Assembly: GCF_964204645.1 (NCBI RefSeq)
Contig: NC_134028.1
Coordinates: 2,232,001 to 2,296,000 of the forward strand
Direction of reading: 5' to 3'
DNA length: 64,000 nt
From: Tubulanus polymorphus
Lineage: Eukaryota > Nemertea > Palaeonemertea > Tubulaniformes > Tubulanidae
The notes beneath the pieces were generated by a model. It did no database searches, had not been told where the DNA came from, and was given only the letters and a program-made list of their open reading frames with translations. Every line of letters begins with the position of its first letter. The stretch's first letter is position 1. Position numbers and translations under genes: made by a program. Of the stretch, positions 29,101-55,721 are shown piece by piece.

Positions 29101-32100
29101 TTAGGGATTTATTATTGGAGAATTGGTATCCACCGTATGCTTTGTATGTTGTAGGTAGTGATACCGAGATGCCTATTACTACTGACGTTGGTGGAGTTCA
29201 CATTCAGTTTGCAAAAGGTAGAGATAAATCAGCAGCAGCTTGCAGCACGCCATGCATTCATTGAGTGAATAGTGTCATATTCCTCTGGGTTAAACGTGCT
29301 AGCTTCTTCATAATGAACGTAATAGGATTTTATATTTACTGACCAGGGAAGATAGCCTTTCATGATGGCTATCTTCATACTTAAACCTAGTTGAGATTAT
29401 TTTAGAAACTAAAAAGAGAGAACATATAGCCCACTAGTCATGCTATTCATTCCATTCTCTAGCTATTTTGGTATATTGTTAGTATCACAAGTCTCCACCA
29501 GCCGGCAGCACATTCTAATTGTGTACAGGTTTGCACGAGAACTTCCCAATAGAATATCTAAAGCCTGGAAAAGGTTCCTAGAGGAAGACTAGAATTTCTA
29601 TCTATATTCTTTTATTATTGAAATTTTGATAACCATTCAATATCTTGCATGTGTCTTTATGAAAAGAATTGTTTAAATGCTCGGATATGAATAGTAACAC
29701 TTGGTAAAATATCTTATTTCAAAATTAATTTGAAGCGATCATTTTGCTGCTGAAAGTGATATTTCAATGAATTAGTAGAAAGTAATTTCCATAATATTTC
29801 AGATGAGAAAATTTCATCAGAAGAAACAGAGCAGACATTGAATAAGATGGGACCTAATGATCCGAGTTCAGCTATTATCAATGGGGATATTATTGAGTCA
29901 AATGGCACCGGTGATGCCACTGACAACGTTATCAAGGGAAAGGACTTACAAATTATGACAAAGTTAACAAATGGATGTTCAGAAGGATCGTTTGAATCAG
30001 TTGGTGCAGTGAATTGTCTAAGTGAAAATACGGAACATAAAGTGAATGGTTTAGATGATGGCGGTAAAACCAGTGAAGATGTTTTGGCTACAGGTGAATC
30101 AGTGGCTGTTAAGGCAAGTTCGATAGAAACCGTTCCTCACAGTCCTAATACGCAAGATGAAGAAATTGATGAATTGTTGTTGTTGTGTGAAAATAGCATC
30201 ACGGAAACTGGAATAACCGTCAGCCCATCGGAGGATAAAGTCTTAGACAGCGGCGATGAAGAAATGGCTGCAGATTCCCCGAAAATGTCTAAATCGAAAA
30301 GTGATCATGAAAATGATCAGAAAATTGATGTGGATCTAGAAAATGAAGAGAACCTGGCTGATAAGGATGGCGATGTTACTCAGAATGATGAGGTAATGGG
30401 CGCCGATGATGAGGTTATGAATGGAAACGATACCGATCGAATCATCGAAAAAACGTCTGAATCGAAACTGTTGCAAATAGAATCAAAATTCGAAGCATCC
30501 GGAAAATTGACGGAAAGCTGCGCGAACAATGGATTATCGGAGTCAAATAAAATGACTCATTGCACTGATGATTCAATGAATGATGGCGATGAAAATGTAA
30601 ATACAGATCTTCCTGGTTCAGTTAACGACAAAGGCGTTGATAATATTCAATTGTCGGACTCAATCGAGAATAACCGCGATGTTGTTGAAGCAGGTAATTC
30701 CGATACGAAAATAGATGCTGATGATGCGAGTGTCGTTGGCGTCGACGATTCACAGAAATCGCCCGACGAAATTTACGAACGAACGATCGGCGACGAAATC
30801 AACGCGATCGTGAACGGATCGAAAGATGAAAATGCATCGCTGAATAATCCCGGTGAGCAGGATGTGTTAGAGGTCGAGATCGACGCCGAAAGCGAGTATA
30901 ACATCATCGAATTCGATGATACGAAATTGGACTGCGACTCGGTGGATGAAAACGTATTGAAAAGCCCGCCGCAATCGTCGGACGATACCGAATCGTCCTT
31001 TCCGAAGTCGACGAAAGTTACGGAAGATGAAAACCTGATTCTGGACGAAGGAGATGACGAAAACAGTGCCATGTTTTCTTCGAAGGACTCTTCGTTGTCG
31101 TCTAGTTGTAAAAGTAAATCATCGTCGGGCGCTCTGCAAATCGGTAAAAGTTTTCGCGACTCGTTCAAATGCGTCGTGGAAAACGCGCTCAACCATCTGT
31201 CGCAATCATCCGGCGACGATTCGCAAGTTGAAAAACTCGCGCCGGATAAAGCGTCGAATGAACCGGTCGTATCGGATGTACGGGTTGCATCAACGACGAC
31301 GACGGCAACTTCTAGAAATTCAGGAAATTTGTTCGAAAATATGTCGTCCGCTCTGGTGACGTCTGCCGAGCATTCGGTAGTGAAGGAGGATGTAGTTGAA
31401 GATACGGTGGATGCTGCTGATAATAAAAACGAAGATGAGTCAATCATAGAATTGAATCAGTCGGAAACATTGAGCACTAGTAAAACGGATAACAGCATTC
31501 TGATATTAGAAAATAGTGATGAAGAGGAAGTTAAAGGTAAGAATCTCGCTTTTTTTGTCAGTTGATTCGGTTTTTGAAAACTTCATGACGTTTTTTCTTC
31601 ATTCATTACTTCAGACGATACTGGCAATAAAGAAGTAGGTGATGATGAAAACATTGGAACCAACAAAGATTGTAACCAGATAACCGATGCTAGTCAAAGC
31701 GATGCTGTACGCAAACGAGTTGCATCACCCGAGGCGAATGAACCCGAGGCTAAACGTATGAAAGTCCCTCCGCCTGACGTGAACGATGCAAATTCTCAAC
31801 CAATGTCGGATTTCAGTTCAAGTACGGAATCCGTACCTGTTTCCGATGGCTACGAAGCTATGGACACGTCAACGGGAACTTCCGTATCTAATGATGCTCG
31901 GACAAATAATGGAACGGACAGCGGAGATAAACCACAAAATAAAAAGGTAGTTTTAGATATCGGCTTCTACATGCGTTCAATGGATAATAAATCATGTCTG
32001 CATTAGGTCAAGATCTGGATTAAACAAATTCAAATGTTTCTTATTCTTGCATATTTGTAGGACTTCGAAGCATTCATGCAAGCTAAATTCAGTTTGTACC

Positions 32101-35100
32101 TTACGAAACAAATGGAGAAAATAATTGCACCTTTGCGAAAACGTGTGCAAGAGTTGAAAGTGAGCAACGAAGCTTGGAAAGCTACAGCGATTGAACTGCG
32201 CAAGAAAGTAGAAGAGGCCGAGGTGTTGATAAATCAAAACGAACTACAATCAAAGACCAATCGTAGGGTTAGTGTCGTTAGTATTCTGTGTTTATGATGA
32301 ATGGTCGTGTTAGAAGTAAATCAGTATTTGCTATATTTGTTTATGTCATCATTGTAGGTTTCTACTCGTAGTATAGGCCTCCAGGTCGACAATTCAAAGG
32401 TAGATAACGAGAAAAATTATCTGTTACAATCAATGAAGATTACTGATTCTTCATATTTGCTGATTCGATAATTATTTCAGGTGGCTAAAATGCAACAAGC
32501 CGCGTTCGCCGCGTCGACCGTCATCGGTCACAATCGACCAGTTACTCCGCGTAAATCTCCACCAACGACCACGATACCGATCAGACCTAATCTTATGCCA
32601 GCGAATACGACTCTGACCACATCATCCAATACGATGTCTCAGTTAGTTCGTCAAATGCAGGTAAAAAAAACTGAACAGAAAAGAATTATTTGAATGTACC
32701 CGATATGAACAATTCTGTACATTCGATAGCATTTAGTTTTATCCTTCCTTACCAGTATTTATTGCATAAAGTATGTGTAAATCCATTACTGACTTTCTCG
32801 ATGAATTTGACTGCATAAGACTCTGTAAAACGTAAGACAACAGGGCAAATTTAGGGACATTGAGTTTGCCCTTTTCATCAAGACAAAGATCGTTAAAACC
32901 TGCCCTTGTTTATCTGAACAATTCCTTATTCATTTCTTCTAGACCTTGGCCTTCCAATTTTCCTAAAATCGACCCTGAGGTCTGTTAGAAATAGGTATTC
33001 ATTTGCTTGTATGGGGCTTGAATTCAAGCTTCTCTAATAGAAATATCTGATGCGATGATTACTACATGCTTTCTATCAATTTCTTTTTATAGTTCGTTCC
33101 ATCGCCTGCGACTCCGCCTTCCGTCACTAACTTCGCTAAACAGAATCAGCACCAGATTATAAAACCTGCTGGTAAGGCGATGATGCCAGCGACTCTTCCA
33201 GCAGTAATAACCTCAACTGGTCAACGCGTAGTCAATGCCAACGTAGTCAATTCAACAATTGCGCAACAAATCAATGTAGCGACGAGCGGTACTATAATGA
33301 CGACGAATCCGCGCGACGTGCAACTGTTTCCGAATTCAATCACCGTACCGGTTTCTGCGGTCAGACAAAACGGGCCGAGATTTACGTCGGGTGTCATCGG
33401 TCAACCTCGACTAGCCGTACCGGCTCCGACGACGCTGACAACCACAACGCGACCGCCTTCATTACAGGTAATCGATTTAACCGGCGACGATTCGCTGAAA
33501 AAGAAACCGACCGGCAGCGTGAATATCGTACGAGGTCCCGCTCCGCCGCAGCTAGTCACCGGAAACATTCAGGGCGTGATGCAACAAGTTCGGCCGCTTC
33601 AGCAGTTACCGGCGGGTACGGGAATACTGGTGAATAATCAAGGACAAGCCGTGTATCTGAGACAGAACTCAGCGGTGCCGAACACGACGCCGACGATCAT
33701 CTATCAAGCCCCAGCTGTTAGCACGTCGTCGCGTCCTCCGATTGTAACTCTACTCCAGCAGCCTCCGGCCGGTAGTAACGTACGATCAACGATAGTTCAG
33801 GTTCCAGCGTCTTCACCACTACTACAACAAGCTAGCTTCCCTCAAACTGCTAATGTGGTATGTTGCATATTATCAATGTTAAAGATGAGATTTTTGAAAT
33901 TGATAACCAGTGCTGTCCAATTGAGTGCTGTCGGTAAGAGGAAAATCTTGCCGACAATCACTCCTTGTCAGTCGAAATAGCTTCTGGGTCCTGTGGGTGA
34001 TCATTATAATCATTTGTTACCTGTTCAAACTTTTGCTTTACCTATGTAATCATATTATTTGCGCAGAGTTTCTTGAGTTAGATTATTTAGAACAGGCTGT
34101 ATGCCATAATGTTACTTCCAATACATCTTTTTGTTGAATGTCACTTGTTAGTCAGGATGTTTAGTACACAGAATTCATGTAATGTACGGGTTCATATATT
34201 ATTTTCAGATGAAGTCTCCGGCTGTGATGCCTCGGCAACAAATTACACCGGCATTACCAGCGGCACCTAAACAAACAGCAGTTCAACTTCCTTCATCATC
34301 ATCAATCACTGTCGTACGTATCACACCTTCATATCCATCCGAGTCTAGATGCTATGTTCAAATAAATGCCTCTTTCTATAACCATCGATGAAACAATGCC
34401 TTGTTCGATGTCCATTGAGTTACTTACCGTTCCTATTCACAACGAGCATTACAATGTTGCGTGTGGCTTTTCACTTTCTCGTTGAATTTCAGACACCACC
34501 ACCTCCTAAACCAGTCACAGTTCAGACTAATACGACAAAACCGACCCCGATAGCGGTTGAACATCCAGCTCCTTTACCGCTGCAACCGCAATCTACATTA
34601 AAAAATGGAAAATCTGTGCCTCCAAAACCTGGTCTGAAAATATCCAGAGTTACCCAAGGTAAAATCCAGATAATATTTTGTATGCTGCTAAATGATTCTA
34701 ATAGTGATTTTCATCCGATAAATGTGATTCATTTCAATGTATTACAGGAATAGTTTTATCATGGAACATGCAAGTGTCATTGAATCACGAAGAGATCTCT
34801 CGTTATCAGCTGTACGCCTATCAGGAGAGTTCAGCGCCGCCTAGTACTTCATTGTGGAAACGAGTAAGTGGAATATTGAGGAAACGGAGTCAGTTTTGAT
34901 TAAGTTCTATGAATATAAACTGATTTCAATCTAAAACTGTGGAACTAGATGTTTAGGTTCACTCGACCCTTTCAGTGCATCTTGTAAAATTGGTGGACTT
35001 CACTAGTGCATCTTTAAGAATTGATTTTGAGTTTGTTTTACCCTAAGTGTCCATCAAATACTGCATCAAATGAAGTCAAATATGTCATGGAATATATTTC

Positions 35101-41933: not shown

Positions 41934-41939
41934 TTTATT
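41934..41939 (-). terminator. Poly(A) signal of the rhodanese/pseudophosphatase gene
   Basis: Minus-strand AATAAA, 115 bp beyond the stop at 42054. Confidence 0.5.
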
Positions 41940-42053: not shown

Positions 42054-45000
42054 CTAACATCCTTCGAGTCTATTATTATCTGTCTTCTTTCCCCAGACCT
42101 GTTTTTCGAACTTTAGCAAACTTTTACAGTACGTATTGCCGAGGTGCAAACAGTTTCTTTTCGATTTCACGAGATCTATCGCATCTTTGAGACTCAATTC
42201 CTGCATGTACATGATCGCAGCTACAACTACTGCCCCGCTATGAGCATTTCCATCCTGGTGACAATGCACCAAACAACAACCACCACGTTTCGCACTTAAA
42301 GCGTCCGATACAAAAAGTACAGTCGAATTAAAGTGATTGAAAGGGAGTTCTGATTCGTCAACTTTTAGATATTCTACACGTCCCGGAAACGCGTTTCCTA
42401 TTTCAGTAGAAATATTAACGGTGTGAGTAATTGACAAATGTTTCAGAACGTCCTCGCTACTAGCGTGTTCATCACTACCGAGATAAAGCTTTCCATCTAA
42501 AATCTCCGATGGATAAGTTATGATCGAACCACCGTCGTCTTGCGACGAGCGACACATAAAGCTAAATTTCGCGCTAAATCGATCAAAGCCTTGATCCAGA
42601 ATAGATGGTTTTAGTGCCCGGGCTCGTAGGGCGTCGACAACCAGAGACAAACGACTATCTGTTAAATCATACGTACGTCCGTTTGCATCGTAAACTATGA
42701 TCAACGAATCATTGAATACAGAAAATTCGATGCCTTCGGAAAAGTCTTCGCTACTTATCGCGGTTTGGACGTGTTTTTTGACGAACGCATCTTCGTCTCG
42801 ACTATCTATAATGATTAACTTTTCATCTTTCGTTGCTTCGACGTCGTTCAATAAGTTGTACAGGTTAGAACAGGATATATAGATCGGTTCGTCTGACAGA
42901 CCATCGCTTACATCATCATCCGGATTATTCCACGGATGAATACGATCTTTAATATCGCCAATCGAAGTCCTGTTTGAAATGCAACTCGCTGAAATTAAGA
43001 AATATCGATGAGTAGTTATCATCAAAAAGACTTTAAAAAGATTGGAACAACATCATCGAGAAATGGAAATGAGACCTTTTCTATCTTTGACGTCGACGTC
43101 ACTTTCGCTACCGTCATCGCCCTGCAATAGAAAAATATTACTGCATCGTTTGTATACCTGATACCATTGCACTATGTAAACAGATTTTTTCCACGCAGTT
43201 TCATACCGAATGATTAGTCTTTGCGTTGTGATGCCTTATCACTTTTACATCTCCAATCCCATTTCTGTTAGAGTGTTCACTATCCCCAGATTCGAGATCT
43301 TCCCAATCGCGTTCTGTTTTCTTCTTGCTTCGTCCAAAAAGTCCTAACTTTCTCTTGTGTTTACTGGACGATTCTCGTTCGTCGTCGCTTTCGTCCAGAT
43401 CATTGCCCTTTTTCTTCGTCTTCTTTTGCTTTCTCTTATCAGAAGCTCCGTCCTTATCTGAACCACAATCAGACTCTGAGTCACTATTTCTACGATTTTC
43501 TTTCTTTTTAGATTTTTGCTTCCCGTCTTTCTTGTCTTTCCTCTTTTTATCTTCATCGCTTTTATCTGCGTCCTTCTTTTTTGACCACTTCGACCTTTTA
43601 CTTACTTTCCTCTTTCGCTCTTCATCTGAACCTGAATCATCGGAACTCCCATCTTTCTCTTCCCTAGACGACCTTACTTTAGACTTTTGGTTTTCCTTAC
43701 CAATATTTTCGTATCCCTTTTTCGACTTCTTTTTTTTATCTTCGTTGCCGTGCGGTTTACGCTCTTTTTTCTCATTAGTTTCCTTCCGTCGTTCTTTTTT
43801 CATTTCGTTAACAGATTCGTCTTCGCTTACACTTTCTGACTTTTTCTTTTTTCCTTTCTTTTGATGATGTTTTTTTTTTGCCTTACCTCTATTGACCTCA
43901 TCGCCGTCGTCGTCATTAGAATAATCATTTGTGTACCTATTCAGATGGATCACTTGTATCTCATCTTCGAAAATGCTACTACTTCTCCCACTCTTTCCCG
44001 ATTTAGACTTGTCCTTCTTTTTCTTGTCTTTCATTTCCTTCTTTGCTTCCTTTTTCTTTGCTTTTCTCTCAGCTTTCTTACTGTCATCTGCCTTATCTTC
44101 GAATTCACTTTCAGATCCTGCTTCAGAATCAGTGGCCTGTTTCTCGTTTTTCTTCGATCTGTATTTCAATCTTCCAAACAACGAATAACCTTTAACACTT
44201 TCTAAATGAGCATCCCTTTTGTCTTTAACAGCGCATTTTTTGGTCTTCGCGTCCAATCTTGTTTCGTCGTCGCTTTTATGAGAAATTGGCTCACTATCAT
44301 CGTCATCAGTGGCGTCATCGTCACCATTATCATCTTCATAATCCTTTACACAGAACAGTAGTCTCGGTTTTCCCATGTCAGCTGTAAAGTTAGCAGTGCT
44401 TTCATCGTTACTCAAATCTTTAACTTCACCTGTATCCGTATCTTCTGCTTCATCCAGAGACGCATTTACAACACCCAACCCCTGCATCATTTCAACGCTA
44501 GGCCGAACGTAACGCTGCGAAAAAAGTGGTCGATCTTTCACGGCTGCTGTTTTGTTCTTCTTCTGCATCAGATAGTTTCTAAACTCTTCATTTGGATTAG
44601 TAAGGTGGCTGAATTCTTCCGGCTCTGACTCGGACCCGTTGCCGTTTTCACCAGCCTGTACCTGTTCTTTCTTTTTACGTCGTTTCCAAAACGGAACCTT
44701 TTTCTTTGCATTAGTTTTAGAAGCATCCTTTGATTCTTTTTCTTTGCTTTTTCTTATTTTACTGTCATCGTCACTTTTCCCACTATTATGGCGACTTATT
44801 CCATTTTTCTTCGAGGAGCATTCGTTGTCACTTTCTTCATCATCTCCATCTTCGTCTTCTTTATTTTTCTTTTTCTTTTTAATTGACCATCTTGATTTTT
44901 TATCCTCGGGTTTATGTTTTGACGATGGTTTCTCATCTTTATCTTTATCATTCTTTCTACTTTTTGACGATCTTTTACTGGATGTCTTATCCTCATTTTC

Positions 45001-46078
45001 ATCATCAGATCCGACGTAACTTTCTTTTCTTCGCAGCAAAGACCATCTTCTTTTCGGGTGCTTTTTATTTTCGTCAGTATCCTCCTGATCGCTGCTATTG
45101 TGTTTCAAGTGTTTAGTGTGTGAATCGCTTTTTGGTCTTTGTTTTCTTGTCTTCTTCTCATTTTTCCGCGGTGAGTCTTCGCCGCTCTCAGTTTTGGCTC
45201 TCGGCTTGACGCCATTTTCGTATGTTTTATTACTCAGTGCTGGACTCAGTTTTTGCGAGCTGATGAATACAGGAGTCGATTCTTGGTCTCCTTGATATGA
45301 CTTTTCACTCTCAATCGTGTCGCTCTCATCATCTGAAGGAATTATTTGTATTTCTTGAATTTCACCGCGCTTATTCCGCCGTCGTAATCCCCGGGATTTC
45401 TTCTGAAAGAGGAACAATTTTCAGAGTAAGTCGATAAGATACACAATATCCGTAAGGTGGCTGTACGAGAGAAATCCTACAATAATTCAGCCAAAGAAGA
45501 AACATATATGAACTTTTTTGGCTGTATTTATTGAGTGGGATTTCTCGCGTGAAAATGAATCATTCAGCTAATTTCTTTACAATCTACACCTTATTCAAGA
45601 TAACCTGCAGCGAACAGTCAAATTCAAATCTATGCGTGTGAACAAGGCATCAATTCTTAAAATCTATATTCAATAACTCAGTTCGTTATTCACCGTGGAA
45701 CCGGTATTTGGTATCGAAGTTGTTAAAAATTGGGGCAACATTCGGTCGTACATTGACACATATGAACAGAATTCTAATTCAAAGTCTATAACAACACGAG
45801 GCGTGGTGTATGTACCGTCATAGAATTCAAATCAAATTGATTTGAGTTCTATGGTACCATATAGGTAATTGAATAATTTAACGGTTACATTATATTTACA
45901 TATCAAAAGCAAAACCGTATAGGAATATTTAGATTAAACTGCAATTTGACATTAGTATACTAACTTCTGTTCCTCGATATGAGATGCGAGGGCTTCCATC
46001 CGAGTGCCCAGCTGCCGTTTCGAAAATTCCTGATTTGGGGAACACTTTCGGAATCGCATTTATATCTGCATCGGCCAT
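42054..46078 (-). CDS. Lys/Glu/Ser-rich protein fused to STYXL1-like rhodanese plus dual-specificity pseudophosphatase
   Basis: Exons 45965-46078, 43207-45402, 43076-43121 and 42054-42988 join in frame to 1096 residues. Residues 1-38 start MADADINAIPKVF. Residues 39-770 are one huge exon of Lys, Glu, Asp and Ser runs (KEKE-type, probably disordered, with several basic clusters like nuclear signals). Residues about 820-935 form a rhodanese fold (YISCSNLYNLL, IIIDSRDEDAF, SLIIVYD) with no catalytic cysteine after VYD. About 950-1090 form a dual-specificity phosphatase fold (LYLGSDEHAS, HTVNIS, CLVHCHQDGNAHSG). Cys1028 is present, but the loop is CHQDGNAHS rather than CX5R, so the phosphate-binding Arg is missing. 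This order of domains is that of STYXL1 (MK-STYX), a catalytically dead regulator of stress granules and mitochondria, which lacks the long N-terminal part. The two introns joining the halves are only 85 and 87 bp, and one donor (GTCTCA) is weak. Confidence 0.75.
45441..45550. mobile_element. Compact relative of the nested-hairpin element
   Basis: Shares acaatatccgt and acgagagaaatcc with the element at 19297-19577 and ends in the complement (gggatttctcg). The centre is shortened to a small stem around ttcagccaaaga and ttttttggctg. It lies in the first intron of the fused gene, just upstream of the large lysine-rich exon. Confidence 0.5.
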
Positions 46079-47632
46079 TTCAGCCCCTCAATTATCACAC
46101 GGCCTATAGTTAAAGTAATAATAGACGAATAAATTTCAGCGATTTAATGTTATTCACACATGAAGTTATACAGTATAACAGGCTACAACGCTAAACGTAC
46201 ATATATGAAAATCAAAATCTCCTTCGCAAAATAAATTGTTTATCTTTTAATCATGACGGTTAGCCAGTTTAGTATGAAGAAAAATCTTTATTTGATAGAC
46301 AAAATCATATTCCATCCCGCAGAAGTAAGTAAATAAGTTGAAATTTGTTTTCCCTTAAGCTAGGTTTCCTAAACTATGCTTCACCTTAAATACAAGAATA
46401 TAAATTCCAGAAATCTCATTTTACACAAGTCCTTAGGTTCTGGCGAATCGTGTGATTTTGACTGCAATACATACCACCGCCTTTTTCGTCTTCAACGACT
46501 TTCTTGGTTGTTTCAACTAACACGTTCGAAGTGTAAGGTATATCATGATTCCAGTTGAAGTTGAATTATGACATATCTTCTTAAGTGCTCATGCGAACAA
46601 CACTTTACAGTGATCTGTTCTTAGATATATACACAAGTTACTGCAGTAAAACATGACTCTCAAATCATACTCGATAAGAACTATTAGAGCTTGATATTAC
46701 ATTTAAAAGAACAGACTACGAAATGTCACCCCAAACCAAACCGGTTCCTGCAAATCACTGTCAAAACGTTGTCCTGCCATTATTGGGCGTTTTGCAGTCA
46801 TATTCTAAAGTCTCATTCTAAAGATAATTGTCTAGTTCTCCTTAAAAACTCGTTATCACTTCGTCGGAATTCATTTGCTGTCGTCGAGGTCTCTGCACAG
46901 CACAGTCGAACTGGGCGAACTGGGTGCTGATTTTGTGCCTAATCCATATGGAAAGAATCCGATGTATGCACGAGCACGGCTCTCTTACAGATTGACCATC
47001 TAAACCTTTATTCTACGTAGTAAATTTTTAGTTTACAATGATAGTAAATCTGTCATAATTCCACTTAATACGAAGTACATTCTGTTCGTATTAGATTATC
47101 CGGCTATATTGTTTCACGTGGTGGGTTGTCGGGCATAAAGGTCAAGAAGCCGTTTAGCGCCAATGAGCTCAGTGTTCTTCGTGCAAATGAACTAGTTGCC
47201 GGAACCACAACAATCAGTCTCGTCTGAATTTTCTCGCACGATTGTATTTCGTTATAAAATATACGTGATTTGTGAATATACAAGTATTAGGTTAACGTAG
47301 AAGAATAATTAGCGATACTTCAGCTCCATTTGTCCAGTCAGATCGCGGTCAACAACACAAATAAACGACTACAACAGAATAGATCGATTGAACCTTTGCC
47401 CGCAAAGGTAAATGATTTTATTATATCCGTATAAAATATACATTAATGAATCTACCGACTTAAAACACTATAAAAACTATAGACACATTATCTTGTTATT
47501 AGCATAATCTAAAAATCAGAGGGTCAAATATCTATACAACTGCAATTCCTTTATCTAACATCTATTTCATGTAAATGCATTTACAGTTGTATTAGTAATT
47601 ACTACTTATAAATAAAGAGTTTAGGAATAAAT
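46079..47632. other. Promoter side of the fused gene and 3' flank of centlein
   Basis: No exon-like sequence is seen. The stretch should hold the 5' UTR and promoter of the minus-strand fused gene and, at its right end, the centlein 3' UTR. A minus-strand AATAAA at 47417-47422 lies about 210 bp beyond the centlein stop. Confidence 0.4.
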
Positions 47633-50600
47633 CTAGATTTTCGTTAAAAGTTGAACTCGTTCATCCATCATTTCCATCATACAATCAACTAGAGGCAGTG
47701 AAAAATCATTCTGAAATTCAAGAAAGTAAATCCACTTAAAAGGAGGTGAACAGATTTCAGCGTGAACGAGAACAAAGTTATACGAAAGGTTTACTTACTT
47801 TGGTTAGAATTCTCTCCCATCGTTTCACCCAGTGTTTATCACGTTTTCGATCTGCTTCTATATCTCCATCAAACTACAACAAAAATGTGACAAATAGACT
47901 TTTTGCCTTACATGTTTATTAGTTACGTGATGATTACTCGGTAAGCTAAATACATGACTGCTAGATAGTTCTTCTATTACTAGTTAATTCAATTATCTCA
48001 TCCAAATAACGTGATTCAAACGAAACGAAATCAACAAACCAATCAATCTTACCACAACTTTTTCATCTTCAACTTCGCTGTCATCATCATCATCATCATC
48101 GTCGTTATTAAGACGAGTTTTCATGAAATCGTCCAGCTCCGACTGACTGATGTTTAATATAGATTTAGCGACTCGTTGAGCCGTTAACATCGATGATTCG
48201 TTCACCGTAGAAACCGGCACCGGTTGTTGTGAAGTGCGACGTTGTAGTCGGAGTTGTTCTCGTTGCGTTTTACGTTGTTCGATCCGTCGTTGTCTAGCCA
48301 ACGTTCTGGCGTGTTGAGTCGCGCTCAATAGCACTTGCGCTAATGACTGTAACGATAATGAGATACGATACGATAACTAAAATGAAAGTAAAACAAAGGA
48401 AGCCTTCGCTCCATTTCTCTTTTACAATACTGCTTAACCCGGATCAACGGTAGAACCTCGTCATAATGAAAGCGTTTCAAACCTAGATTTTCATTCCGAA
48501 TAGGTAAAATCTAATAATGTCCTGACAAAAACACATGAAGAGGTATTTTTGGTCGTACTGGATTCTGTTCCCCTGAAGTCCCACGTATATTACACAGTAA
48601 ACTGGTACCAAGTCCCAGTCTATAGTACCCGGTACACGCACTTACACTTATAAAATGATGATAGTTTTCGTTTTTATCGAGGGCGTTGGCAAGTTTTTCT
48701 TGAGCAGTATCCAATGCGACCTCGCTTTTCTTCGCCAGCGCTCGCAGTTGTTGCTGCGCTGTTTGTTCGATTTCAGACATCATCACTTCCACATCAGCAG
48801 TTCGTGTTTCCGAGTCCTGCAGCAATTTTGCCTAAAATGGTTTCACAGAATCATTCTCATCAGTATCATATCTACATCATAATCTTTAATCATTTCCAAC
48901 ATTTCACAAAATGCTAGAATATACCTTCTTATCACATTCGATCTTAGATTTACGATATAATCCTTCGTATTCACTCCTTTCTTTACTAATCACTGCCAAT
49001 CTCATCTTTAGGGATTCAATCTGTAAAAGATTTCAAAACAATGTTTTCTAGTTTTTCTAACGATAACAAAACACAGTTGTTACAGTAATATTTACAGTGG
49101 TTCGTTGTCGATCGTGAGTTTCCTGAAGCGATTTCAAACGTTTCTCCATATCTTCCTACAACATGTCAAAAATTTAACATATGTAAAAACAGCATTAACA
49201 AACGACTTAAAATCTGTCTCACTGACCACAGGTAGATAACTTCTATACATCTTCAGGGATTTATCATAAACGTCATGTACAGGAAACAGATAGTTTTTCG
49301 TTAACATTGTGGGTTTTTTTATATATACTTCATAATGCAACTAGTCTTAACCGATTCCATCAAAAATAAATAAATTTATAATATTCTTGATCGAAGACTT
49401 AGCCTCACTCAATAGTGACGGGACGATGAATATTTCACCGAGTTGATAACAACTTGACACGAGGAAAACACATTTAAATTACCATTGTTGTGTTATCGGC
49501 ATTCGCATTGTTTTGGGCTATTTTGAACTTCAGTTTTGCGTCTTCGAGCAGAATACGTTTCTGCGAAACATCGCGTTCCAGTCGATTGATCCTGAAAAAA
49601 TAAAATGATTCCACTTCAACAATCTAGAGAGAATATAAACTTTCAAAACTGTCAATATTGCACTAATTCTTACTTTTCTTGAAGAGACCGAATGAGGATT
49701 TCCTTCCCATCCAATTCTTGTTTCAATGATTTATTCTGATTATTGAGTTTGTTAACTTCACTCGCAGATACCTTACAAAGAAAAAGTATGTTAAATCTCA
49801 GTTGTTATTAAGCATCTGTAGTAACAACTGCGCAGAGCTTTTGACTTAAAGACGTAATTTAGCTTGAGCTGAACCGAGTTATCTAGTAGGACTACTAACA
49901 GTCTGTTGGATATGATATATTATATTCTTACACGGAGTCTATTTTCGAGATGTTTCCAGTCTAAATCAGATCGTCTTGTATCTAGCGTGGTCGGTGTAGT
50001 TGAACGACTGTTTGTTTCTAGTATTTGTTGTTCTAGTTGATTATTCTGTTGCTGTAACCGTTCCACGTCTGCTGACAATTTCTATATAGATATAAAACAA
50101 TATTTTCATTATAAATTGTATGTATTTAGTTGTACGAAATAGCTCTCGTCGAGTGACATTTTTACTCACTTGCACTTGTTGTCTGGCAGTCTTTAGGCGT
50201 TGATTGCATGAATCGAGTTCCACCGACAATTTCTCCTGAGAAATTTTCATTTGATTGTTTTCTTTGTTCAGGTTAGACTTCGCTTGACGTAGAACTTGTA
50301 CCTAATTCAGAAAAAGACCTCAATCGATACTGTTTCTTAATTTATTGAAAATACGTATGATTTAAGAGCTGTTTTACCTGTTGATGCAATGAACCGATTC
50401 GCTGTTTAAGAGCCTGCATTTGTTTATTTTTAGAACGTATAGGAGCAGTAGATGATCTGTATTTGATAGTTTCATGCACAGTTATCGGTGATGTAGCCAT
50501 ATCTCGATATCTAATAACTGATTCAATTTACGCACAAATTAATAAAGCTAGTCTTTTAGATAAATCAGTATCGTATTTCATCATGAAACTGTTACTTTTT

Positions 50601-53600
50601 CCTACCTTTTGGTATTTTTTTCTGTTTTTGCTCCGAGTCATCGACATCCTTGACAGGCGTTTCATTCTTAAATGTCATTCTTTTCAAGTGTTCTTCAATG
50701 GACTCAATCTTCAGGAATCATATGAGAACATTAACAATAAGAGAATACTGTGAGAACCGCAGCAATTTTACGCGTGATATCAGCTGTATTTTACCTGTCT
50801 ACGACTGGCGAGTGTTTTCAGTTGACGAGGACTCGTCGGTTTATTATTTGTTCCAGTAAACGCAGCCTGCGCAGCACGCACGATATCGATACCCAAACTA
50901 CCACTAGTCGTTATAGTTTCACCGCTCGTATATTCGCTTTCAGTTTCACTACAATCAAATCGTAAAACAGAGTTTAAACAGGGTTGGAAGCTTTACTGCA
51001 TCGTAACAGCACAGTCATTACCTATCAGTGGTCACCTCCTCCCAGTCATTTTCATCGTTCAAACGATTTGATTCCTTGTCTAGAACCTCCTTATACTGAA
51101 AATGCAAAACAATCAATACAAACACTGCTTACGCAAAGGATCGAAAATGTATCGAAACACAAACAATTCTAGAATTCAAACCTGGCGATGCAGAGGGCTT
51201 TTCTTTTTCAATCTTTTCTTTGAGTTTCGTTTTCTCTTCAACGTAAGAATCTCTCGTTTCAATCGAGCCATATCTCGTTTCAGGTCAGCGATTTCTATTC
51301 TTTTCTCCGCTACCTCTCTCTTGCAGCTGTTTATTTCAGTCTTTAGAGCCCTGCGGTAATATAATGAAAACTTTGCTCAATAATGAAAAGGATGCGTAAC
51401 AAATTCCATCGTAATAGTCAGAAATCATTACCTTCTTTCACTGTTCAATTTGTCATTATCTTTTTGTAACTTGTGATTCTGATCTTGCAAATCTTCCAGA
51501 GTGGTTTCTTTGGTTTTCAACTTTAAATAGATGAAGCAGACATTCTCAAAAATCAATGAGTTTAAGAAACAACCCGGCTAACCGGTATGTGTTATATGGC
51601 ATTTACCTGAGCCTGTGTATTTTCCAGTTTTTCGAGGGCTGTTTCGCGAGGTTGCAGTAAACGTAGATTCTCCTGTCGCAGATAAAGGCATTCTTCTTTC
51701 TCCTGCTGCAAACTGACCTGCAGTTCGTGAATAGTCGCTGCATCTTGACTCGCCATCACTCGAAGGTTATCCAATTCTTCTTGCATCATCAACCTAAAAA
51801 ATATCCAATACAATCTACAGAACATCAAGTCTAAAGAACTTAAAATTACATGAACAACTACCATTGATAAGACACTATATCCGAGTTATGACGATAATCT
51901 GTAAAAAATCCCACAACAAAAAACACATCCTCGAGTATAGTTCATCCTAATAGTCCAGAAGATGACCAATAGCATATAGATCCTCTACCCATGTTACATG
52001 AACAGTTTCTAATGGAATTAGACTGACCTTTCAGTTTTCAAGTTTCCATTTTCATTTCTAAAGAATGCCAGCTCATTCCACACGGCATCAGAGTTCTCTC
52101 GCTGTAAATTTTTCGGTTCAGTTCTCTTCAACGGTTTCATCTTTTTGGTTTTACTGAAACGATGTAAAAAAGCGAGTGTTAACAGTGAGTTTTCTACTTC
52201 CATGTCATTAAAGGAAATACTACTGCAGGTAGATTGCGATAGAACTAATTCCGGTCTAGAAATAGTAATTCAGGATAACAAACTCTCTTCCTACATTCTA
52301 ACAGGTTAACAGATCATGCTATTCCGGAATCGGTAGAAACCAATTGAAACCTGCCTTAGATTTGTACTAAGTTCTACAGTTTGGAGTTGAATTTAAAACT
52401 AGAATCATAATCAATCAGTTCCAATCAAAGTGTCAAATCTTAACCCAAAATTCTTGATCTTGTATGTTATATTCTGGTCAACATTCCACCTCAAACACAT
52501 GCATCTTACCCGCGGTATTCGTCTTCTAGTGACCTGTACTGCTCTTTCAACAGTTTATGATCGTTCTGTAACGATTTCAAACGTTCTAAACGCTTGTCAT
52601 GAGCAGTTCGTATTTCTTCTAGTTCTTTATTCTGTAATCACAAAAAAAAAACAAAGCAAACTTCCAATGAATTCAATCACAGTCATTTATCCCGATAAAA
52701 ATTATCTTAAGGAATTATCAAGTTTTACCTTTAAACGCAGTAACTGTTGCAATCCTATTAATTTCCTCGAGAGATTCTCAAGTTTTTCCGGACTGGCGAC
52801 CCCGCCACGTCTCGGAGAACGAGAACGTGGGGACTGTTTCGTAGGAGTTGAACTCTTCTCTATCAGGTGAGCAGATGAGAATTCCATGTCTAAAACTTCA
52901 CCACCATTCTCCAACGATTTCAGCTGCCTGAAATTATAGCGCGTCCAAAAGGTAATCGAAAATACAAAGTATCTGCTTTGATATTTTTTCCGACCTTAAA
53001 GGTACATGTACCGACCTATTCTGTTCCCTGATTATTTCCTTAGCCTGCTCTAGATCTTTCGAAAGCTCGTGCATTCGTTTCCGTTTTCCATCGACCAGGT
53101 CATCATCGGTACCATTACTCAGTCTCGATTCTAAATCGGTGATCTTATCTCCTTTTTCTAATAAATCCTAGAATTGAACAAGCATTATTCAGAAAAATAT
53201 TTTATCAAATAACTTCAATGGTTTATCTTACCTAGTTCATTCTGATTGGAGCTGGATCAACTGCAAATACATTAAGGACACTCAATATCTGATGTTTTTT
53301 TTACCTGTTTCATTTGAATATTTTGACTGCGTATTTCAGCTTCGACTGTCAACAATGATCTGTATTTCTTCTCCATTTCCTCGAACATCTAAAACGATTG
53401 AACGAACAATGAAGCAAACGCATCGTTTTGACAACAGAACCAAACAATAGAATGAAATATTCACCGTTCTGAAAGTCTGTGATTCTAAATCATGAGTTCG
53501 ATCTTGTGTTTTCATCACTACAACAGAAATAGACAAATTAGAACAATTAGAAATTCAACCGTATCGAGAATCGGAGCTTTATATATTTACTTCTTTGTGT

Positions 53601-55721
53601 ATCTTGTTGTAGATTCTGTAACTGTTGAATGACTACAGCCTGTTCCAATGCGTGAGGCTTACACAGTTTATGCGTCTCCCATAGCTCCTCCAATTCGTGT
53701 TTCAATCTCGTTATTTCACTCTCACTTTCCTTCTCATTCTCAAAACCGGAAACTTTTGCTTTCATATCTTCGAGCTGTAAAAGAATTTTTTGTGACAAAT
53801 TAACTTTTACGGCGTGCCAGATTCTGTGGATATAAGACATTTTGTTTCTGAAAATGTCAACTGTACCTCACAATTGATAGCGTTGAACTTTTCTCTCCAG
53901 TCGGACATGTCGCGTTCTAACATCTAAAATCAATCACAAGTGATTTCCAGTTAAAGTGGCCACACCCTAATTTACCGAGTTTGCGGGTTCTAGTGATCTA
54001 TTTGTATTTCTTACTTACCGTGACTTTACTTTCATGTACAATTTTGATAGCGCCGAGGTCAGCGTTTTCTGTTTTCAACACGCTGTTCTCGGCCCTCAGT
54101 TGACTAAGCTGATGAACTAATTCCGCTTTATCCTTTTCGAAGCCTTCGACGAGTTGTTTATGTAGTTCGTTTACAGTCTGTTCTTTGTTGGTGGCGCAAC
54201 GCAGCTATAAATACAAAGTACGGAGCGCGTAATGAATCTGTATTGAACCGGGAATGTCGGGACTCCTAAAGACGATGAGTCACCTCTGAGGATGAAAGAA
54301 ACTTTATTCCAACTAATCAGTTTTTACCTTATCTTGTAAGTCTTCACATTTTTTCTTCCCTTCAGCCAAATCAACTTCCATTCGAATAACAGTATCTTCC
54401 ATTTCCATCTTTCTGTAAATTGAGGGATGCTGATAATAAATACACGGCGGCCACTTTTATTTGACTCGCTTCCCCCCCCGACTATTCCCTGACACGCACG
54501 TTGTTTTCCCAGACGTGATCTGCTAAGAATCCGACCAATTTACACAGTCAATTACATGAGAGATAGATGGGAACAGTCTGATACAGTCTAATATAACATG
54601 CAAGCCTAATTTTGAGGTAAGTGGCCACCCTGATATCATCCTCCCTCTGCAGGGACTCGAACCTGATGGCATCGCTACACTCAGCCACGGCACGAACCCT
54701 GCATCAGTAGACCGGGTGCGCAGGTACATGCGCAGCTTTCCGAACGAAAACTGGCGGCACCAATCAGATTGCTCGTTGTATAATCGTTGAGGCAGATTTC
54801 AAGGAAGAACTATAAATGGGAAAACCCGGGCTAAAATAAAACAGGATTTCTGATTGGCTAAAAATCACATCATCTGAACTGCGCATGTATCTGCGCACAC
54901 GGTCGATTATGGCAGGGTTTCGTGCCGTGGCAATCTCGATGCCATCAGGTTCGAATCCCTGCCGGGGGAGGATGCCCTGATATATGATGATTTCTTCAAA
55001 TCATTTGCTATGAATTATATTATTACCGTTTTTGCCACGATTGGTTGTCAGCAGTTTCTCTCATGAGCTTTCGTTCCAATTCAGCAATCTTATCATCTTT
55101 ACTTTGTAAAATCTGTAGAACCTTTCGATCTTTCGTTTCTGTCTTTTCCTTCTCCCTGAAATATTGCGAGATTCTTCCTTATCGAGCAGAATTTTACGAA
55201 AAGATTTTGAAAAGTATTTTCAATATATATGAAAGACACAGACCTGGCAACTACGAGATTTATGGCTTGCGTAATATCCGGATTGGCAACTTGAAGTCGT
55301 TTCCATAGTGACCAAACAAATTCTTTATCGGACTTTGGAAGAAAAATAAAAGATTTCAGTATTTACCCCCCTATCAAACAAGAATAGTGTAAAGCTTTCA
55401 TTGTTTACCTGCACTTGAGCCAGCTCCTCGGACAAACATGTGTTTTCAACTCTTAGCCGGGCAATTTCTTCTTCTGAAATATTATTACAATTGCAAAAAA
55501 TATGACCACACAGTTCTGTTTCACAAAAAAAAAGTTTTACCCAAATTGTTTTAAAATTACTATTTTGGTTACTTCATGCTTTCAATGAGGACAACAATTC
55601 AAACTCAACCGTTTTAAACACAAAACTCTTTCATGAAAATGGACCCTGAAGAGAGTCCCAGATATTCAAAGATGAAGGAAGATGGTTGAACTTTTAGCGA
55701 CTCACCAATGCTACTCGCCAT
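47633..55721 (-). CDS. CNTLN: Centlein (CNTLN), centrosomal coiled-coil protein
   Basis: Centlein links C-NAP1 and CEP68 at the centriole ends and supports centrosome cohesion. Thirty-one in-frame exons give 1241 residues (human about 1400): 55706-55721, 55409-55473, 55244-55332, 55027-55155, 54328-54412, 54019-54204, 53867-53923, 53591-53774, 53465-53517, 53305-53388, 53016-53167, 52729-52927, 52510-52631, 52028-52153, 51607-51793, 51432-51520, 51182-51350, 51022-51095, 50795-50948, 50606-50708, 50378-50502, 50170-50301, 49932-50081, 49674-49771, 49483-49591, 49096-49155, 48925-49020, 48646-48831, 48053-48346, 47799-47873, 47633-47710. Diagnostic matches to human: SDKEFVWSLWKRLQVANPD near the N-terminus, SDAVWNELAFF mid-protein, DWEEV, and AKSILNISQSELDDF near the end. 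The rest is heptad coiled coil, broken by an SR-like patch (SPRSRSPRR) and an acidic run (NNDDDDDDDSE). The human N-terminal extension is absent. Acceptors of exons 16, 20, 21 and 24 are weak. Confidence 0.93.
54446..54632. mobile_element. CAGGGTGGCCACT-ended MITE in a centlein intron
   Basis: The degenerate left end cggcggccactttt pairs with the right end aagtggccaccctg. The interior has ttccctga and caattac words like the copy at 13751-13908. The 340-bp foldback element inserted at its right edge: the 9-bp duplication ccctgatat includes the last bases of this MITE, so this MITE is the older insertion. Confidence 0.55.
54637..54974. mobile_element. 340-bp foldback element, copy 2 (opposite orientation)
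   Basis: It is nearly identical to the reverse complement of 211-550. It is flanked by a perfect 9-bp target duplication, ccctgatat, at 54628-54636 and 54975-54983. Its right end keeps an intact B-box-like word, ggttcgaatcc. It lies in the intron between centlein exons 4 and 5. High similarity to copy 1 and the perfect target duplications suggest fairly recent movement. Confidence 0.85.

Follow-up and report, generated by a model that had tools for sequence, protein, structure and literature searches.

A predicted gene of Tubulanus polymorphus joins a lysine-rich charge-block segment to a probably inactive rhodanese and dual-specificity phosphatase module

The minus strand of a 64,000-nucleotide stretch of the Tubulanus polymorphus genome (hereafter the window, C4:2232001-2296000; the genome comprises 268 Mb in 77 contigs) carries a long lysine-rich open frame and, downstream of it, a frame for a rhodanese domain and a dual-specificity phosphatase (DSP) domain that has lost catalytic residues. 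Predicted splicing makes it probable that the two are joined in one transcript. Our preferred explanation, to which we assign a probability of roughly 55%, is that the locus is one transcription unit whose charge-block segment and dead module together may serve as a localized binding platform; the predicted product would be a 1096-residue protein with a start exon, a 732-residue putatively disordered segment, and a C-terminal rhodanese-DSP module. The predicted features are given below in order of transcription, with a slash at each exon boundary.

45965..46078, minus strand: candidate exon 1, 38 codons from the ATG at 46078 (MADADINAIPK...), with a phase-0 donor, GAA/GTTAGT
43207..45402, minus strand: exon 2, 2196 nt and 732 codons, a lysine-rich block polyampholyte, phase 0/0
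43122..43206, minus strand: intron of 85 nt, TCG/GTATGA ... TTGCAG/GGC
43076..43121, minus strand: exon 3, 46 nt, GDDGSESDVDVKDRK, phase 0 to 1, on the best-scoring in-frame path
42989..43075, minus strand: intron of 87 nt, AAG/GTCTCA ... TTTCAG/CGA
42054..42988, minus strand: exon 4, 935 nt including the stop, a rhodanese plus DSPc pseudophosphatase (Pfam)
41934..41939, minus strand: AATAAA, located 115 nt beyond the stop of the phosphatase frame, with no earlier AATAAA downstream of the lysine-rich stop

The exon coordinates and matching phases (0, 0, 1) proposed in an initial annotation of the window were confirmed, and with exon 1 included, splicing yields an uninterrupted frame of 1096 aa. 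That annotation had also described a 730-residue exon with a stop three codons past a usable donor; the large exon and its TCG/GTATGA donor stood, and the figures are corrected here to 732 residues and a stop two codons after TCG, within an open frame of 739 codons. The exon 3 peptide is acidic, in the style of exon 2, and retention of the 87-nt intron would introduce an in-frame TGA. Exon 1, the most uncertain element of the gene model, is modestly supported: its start context is favorable (GAAATGG), and its frame-0 codon score of 0.24, obtained with a tiny training set, exceeds those of all 189 open non-coding stretches of the same length (maximum, 0.20).

Splice sites were scored with donor and acceptor models fitted to 33 introns lying between consecutive kinesin-motor matches in the same genome. 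The acceptors of the three predicted introns reached 8.1, 11.3, and 8.4 bits (55th, 97th, and 58th percentiles of the kinesin introns). Under the same 33-intron model, the donors of exons 1 and 2 scored 5.3 bits (15th percentile) and 6.2 bits (21st percentile), respectively, and the donor of exon 3 was weak, at 2.0 bits (12th percentile). The GTATGA donor was found in 2 of the 33 inferred kinesin introns, and about half of these introns measured 68 to 125 nt. Since the predicted sites fall within this genome's range and short introns are common in it, the fused gene model is supported. We also scanned every one- or two-intron in-frame join between exon 2 and the start of the rhodanese domain, and the path with the 85- and 87-nt introns ranked first, with a score of 28.0. 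This exceeded the scores of 300/300 dinucleotide shuffles of the same stretch (maximum, 26.8; median, 15.1), 20% of which were without any path; as the shuffles keep composition and not real genomic texture, we take this result as support rather than proof.

Exon 2 is frame neutral: given its 0/0 phases and its length of exactly 732 codons, exon 1 joined straight to exon 3 stays in frame without a stop and would encode 364 aa. Exon 2 might thus be a cassette, with a 364-residue rhodanese-DSP pseudophosphatase as the main product and the fusion as a minor or tissue-specific form. The skipped form would be close to the ordinary size for such proteins, as STYXL1 chains have 296 to 321 aa and, as the initial annotation had stated, no comparable extension. 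Set against this, the exon 2 acceptor is typical, its donor is not especially weak, and a 2.2-kb open frame implies translation; we regard regular skipping as possible and favor inclusion of exon 2 in the predicted transcript.

In an arrangement of two adjacent genes, the first would end with the TGA at 43201, and the second would begin at Met 43022 (MITTHRYFLISASC...) and leave the 87-nt intron unspliced. The weak exon 3 donor would suit this arrangement, as would a frame that is open from 43052. However, the good acceptor of exon 4 would then lie inside the would-be coding stretch, about 180 nt would be left for a promoter and 5' end, and the in-frame splice path outscored every shuffle. The earlier observation that the phosphatase frame has no good start of its own also held up, in that its sole Met before the rhodanese domain is that at 43022, which lies inside the predicted intron in a poor context. 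The first gene would moreover be without a nearby polyadenylation signal, as no AATAAA occurs between the lysine-rich stop and 41939; an ATTAAA variant is present at 42953, within exon 4. Taken together, these observations make two genes unlikely. A separate downstream gene expressed through a spliced leader was considered as well: an exact, non-exhaustive search with one known ascidian leader-plus-donor sequence gave no match, and the missing Met in the rhodanese-DSP part argues against such a gene for any leader.

Upstream of the window gene, a many-exon coiled-coil gene occupies about 47600 to 55600 of the window, also on the minus strand, and ends ...NISQSELDDFMKTRLNNDDDDDDDDSEVEDEK.... 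Its exons extend from about 55.5 to 48.0 kb, and two further exons, at 47873 and 47710, apparently complete it with a stop near 47.6 kb, downstream of which an AATAAA occurs at 47422. Because the coiled-coil gene appears to end on its own, it probably does not run on into the lysine-rich exon. Elsewhere in the window, on the plus strand, positions 29760 to 33980 hold large acidic and low-complexity frames of 601 and 295 aa that have no Pfam match and by eye recall ATF7IP-type proteins.

Turning to the folded part of the single predicted product, exon 4 matches the Pfam families Rhodanese (PF00581, 24.1 bits) and then DSPc (PF00782, 62 bits). The P-loop reads HCHQDGNAHS, in which the Cys is kept, the Arg is lost, and one residue is inserted; the catalytic HCX5R of the MAPK phosphatases (MKPs) is not present, and the acid loop is shortened. 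In the alignment, the rhodanese domain is missing the MAPK-docking arginines of the arginine-rich kinase-interaction motif, a region that reads KKRLQQG, LRRLKKG, and VKRRVGN in this genome's three MKP-type paralogues. From its P-loop and acid loop, the DSP domain is predicted to be catalytically dead, as the initial annotation had proposed. In mammalian STYXL1 the P-loop Cys is replaced by Ser and the Arg is kept (FSX5R; PMC8907265), and its rhodanese domain is likewise without docking arginines (PMC10761714); judged by the P-loop residues, the window gene is inactivated by a route separate from that of STYXL1. Single-sequence structure prediction was uninformative (pLDDT 33).

The loss of catalytic residues, together with a long branch in the trees (1.1 changes per site), would also be expected if the rhodanese-DSP part were a decaying, functionless copy that a functional lysine-rich protein carries with it. 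Exon 4 nevertheless continues for 311 codons without a stop or frameshift, and its DSPc match spans the full length of the profile, so that we consider decay quite improbable and retain the reading of a preserved, noncatalytic module.

Five loci in the genome carry rhodanese and DSPc domains together: one each on contigs C1, C2, C3, and C8, and the window gene. The C8 locus is a single exon of 296 aa (L028 4689-5579, corresponding to C8:13054688-13055578) with the P-loop YSDLGISRS, and its protein aligns over its whole length (residues 1 to 294) with a mammalian axonemal STYXL1 chain (246.9 bits, E 3e-72). No lysine-rich extension lies upstream of it, and a short distance downstream an open frame (L028 8212-8586) resembles the start of an alpha-tubulin. 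By this homology the C8 gene, and not the window gene, is the true STYXL1 of this genome. The rhodanese domains of the C1, C3, and C2 proteins match DUSP10 (1e-29), DUSP6 (1e-27), and DUSP16 (1e-10), respectively, and the DSP domain of C2 groups with DUSP1/4 in a DSP-only tree from which DUSP8/16 were left out; by their sequence matches, these three genes are of MAPK-phosphatase kinds. The starts of contigs C1 and C3 (L040 and L042) consist of tandem-looking repeats of the TCAGTCGG and GGGACTGGAGTGGATAGGGCTGGAGT types, and no telomere repeats (TTAGGG or TTAGG arrays) were seen in five contig-end stretches.

The window gene itself shares about 25% identity with the C8 protein and matches STYXL1 at 35 to 43 bits (42.4 in one search); the best matches of its DSP domain, DUSP1 (49.5 bits) and DUSP4 (48.9 bits), are slightly above STYXL1. 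The DSP-only tree pairs the C8 gene and STYXL1 at 99/99 and leaves the window gene without a placement; a constraint that unites the window gene with STYXL1 gave an AU p of 0.48, so that this grouping is neither supported nor rejected. A two-domain tree, which has six rows and long branches, put the window gene on the STYXL1 side against the three MKPs at 96/96, and a topology that joins it to the C2 MKP was disfavored (AU p 0.04). Both the window gene and STYXL1 have one inserted residue ahead of the first DSP strand (EILDGKLYLG / EIIPGLLYLG / EILPGRVYLG), and both lack the MKP intron at FIG/DE. We read it as a putative diverged out-paralogue on the STYXL1 side, a placement drawn from few rows and long branches.

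Some of these features, namely the identical domain order, the absent docking arginines, the common insertion, and the two-domain tree, would also fit a window gene that is the animal's STYXL1 with a gained N-terminal extension. Orthology with STYXL1 is rejected, however, because the full-length STYXL1 sits on C8, where it also takes the 99/99 position beside STYXL1 in the DSP-only tree; the low scores of the window gene and its kept Cys and lost Arg, the reverse of the STYXL1 pattern, further count against an extended STYXL1, which we consider very improbable. The label "STYXL1-like" used in the initial annotation accordingly holds loosely, in the sense of the 96/96 grouping, and fails as an identification of the STYXL1 gene, given the C8 ortholog.

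In the out-paralogue as we predict it, the module is preceded by exon 2, which is composed of 20.1% K, 13% S, 11.5% D, 10.5% E, and 7% R (E+D, 22.0%), with a net charge of +37. Basic blocks alternate with acidic serine-rich blocks, and charge segregation is well above that of shuffles (z = 8.6 with 6- and 10-residue windows); minimal CK2-type sites are mildly above the shuffled expectation (32 versus 26, SD 4). The exon has no Pfam match at E<=1, which includes the conserved C-terminal domain of Nopp140/NOLC1, and no second copy elsewhere in the genome. An origin by repeat expansion was considered and rejected, a single weak 33-base tandem array having been detected. All five tryptophans of exon 2 (residues 120, 172, 239, 606, and 700) lie in or beside basic blocks, where the mean local net charge is +4.8 against 0.4 expected (p 0.003, for a feature picked post hoc); contexts such as RRWSLLRRK, SRWSIKKKKK, and FWKRRKKK recall MARCKS-type membrane-binding stretches. 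Charge-blocked disordered segments drive condensation of Ki-67 (PMC9106583), which, together with the charge segregation of exon 2, makes a condensate-type scaffold, an idea raised in the initial annotation, a reasonable proposal.

In mammals, STYXL1 belongs to radial spoke 3 (PMC11779644) and serves as a CCT chaperonin cofactor by way of its rhodanese domain (PMC10761714); since it works without catalysis in both settings, we propose by analogy a binding-platform role for the module of the window gene. Our tentative mechanism, which we hold somewhat short of even odds, combines such a platform with a tail that acts as a multivalent electrostatic localizer. Like other MKP-type pseudophosphatases, the folded module would most likely act as a platform for binding, and the charge-block segment would most likely self-associate or bind charged molecules, for example nucleic acid, tubulin tails, or other disordered proteins. 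Multivalent electrostatic contacts of this kind could concentrate the module at one site, and phosphorylation of the acidic serine blocks might tune the localization. The true STYXL1 on C8 would meanwhile be free to keep a conserved axonemal role.

Should the fusion prove real and conserved, it would be a natural example of a dead phosphatase permanently attached to a condensate-type segment, and it would allow a test of whether pseudophosphatases act by the location they hold or by the partners they bind. The window gene would also show that, in a single genome, members of this gene family have lost the active site in two independent ways. An undescribed class of pseudophosphatases, defined by an Arg-less, P-loop-inserted module and a 730-residue charge-block segment that would place the module in a condensate or on a charged scaffold, and occurring beside a normal STYXL1 throughout an animal lineage, is conceivable from these sequences and at present doubtful; restriction to one species would instead suggest an ordinary lineage-specific domain gain.

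Among known systems, Nopp140 and the Ki-67 repeats resemble exon 2 in their alternation of basic and acidic serine blocks and in strong charge segregation, and they have no Pfam domain in common with it. Neither Nopp140 nor Ki-67 is known to carry a fused phosphatase module. The MAPK phosphatases (DUSP1/4, DUSP6, and DUSP10 kinds, represented here by C2, C3, and C1) have rhodanese plus DSP domains as the window gene does, whereas the latter is without their docking arginines, CX5R, and FIG/DE intron and has a shorter acid loop. STYXL1, also known as MK-STYX (the C8 gene and chains 9fqr_Xs and 9d2f_H), is like the window gene in having a rhodanese domain followed by a dead DSP domain, in being without MAPK-docking arginines, and in the insertion before the first DSP strand, and within this genome the C8 gene likewise encodes both domains in one exon. 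Unlike the window gene, STYXL1 is short and unextended, and its active site was altered in another way: STYXL1 replaced Cys with Ser and kept the Arg (GISRS), whereas the window gene kept the Cys, lost the Arg and the GxSRS motif, and has a P-loop one residue longer.
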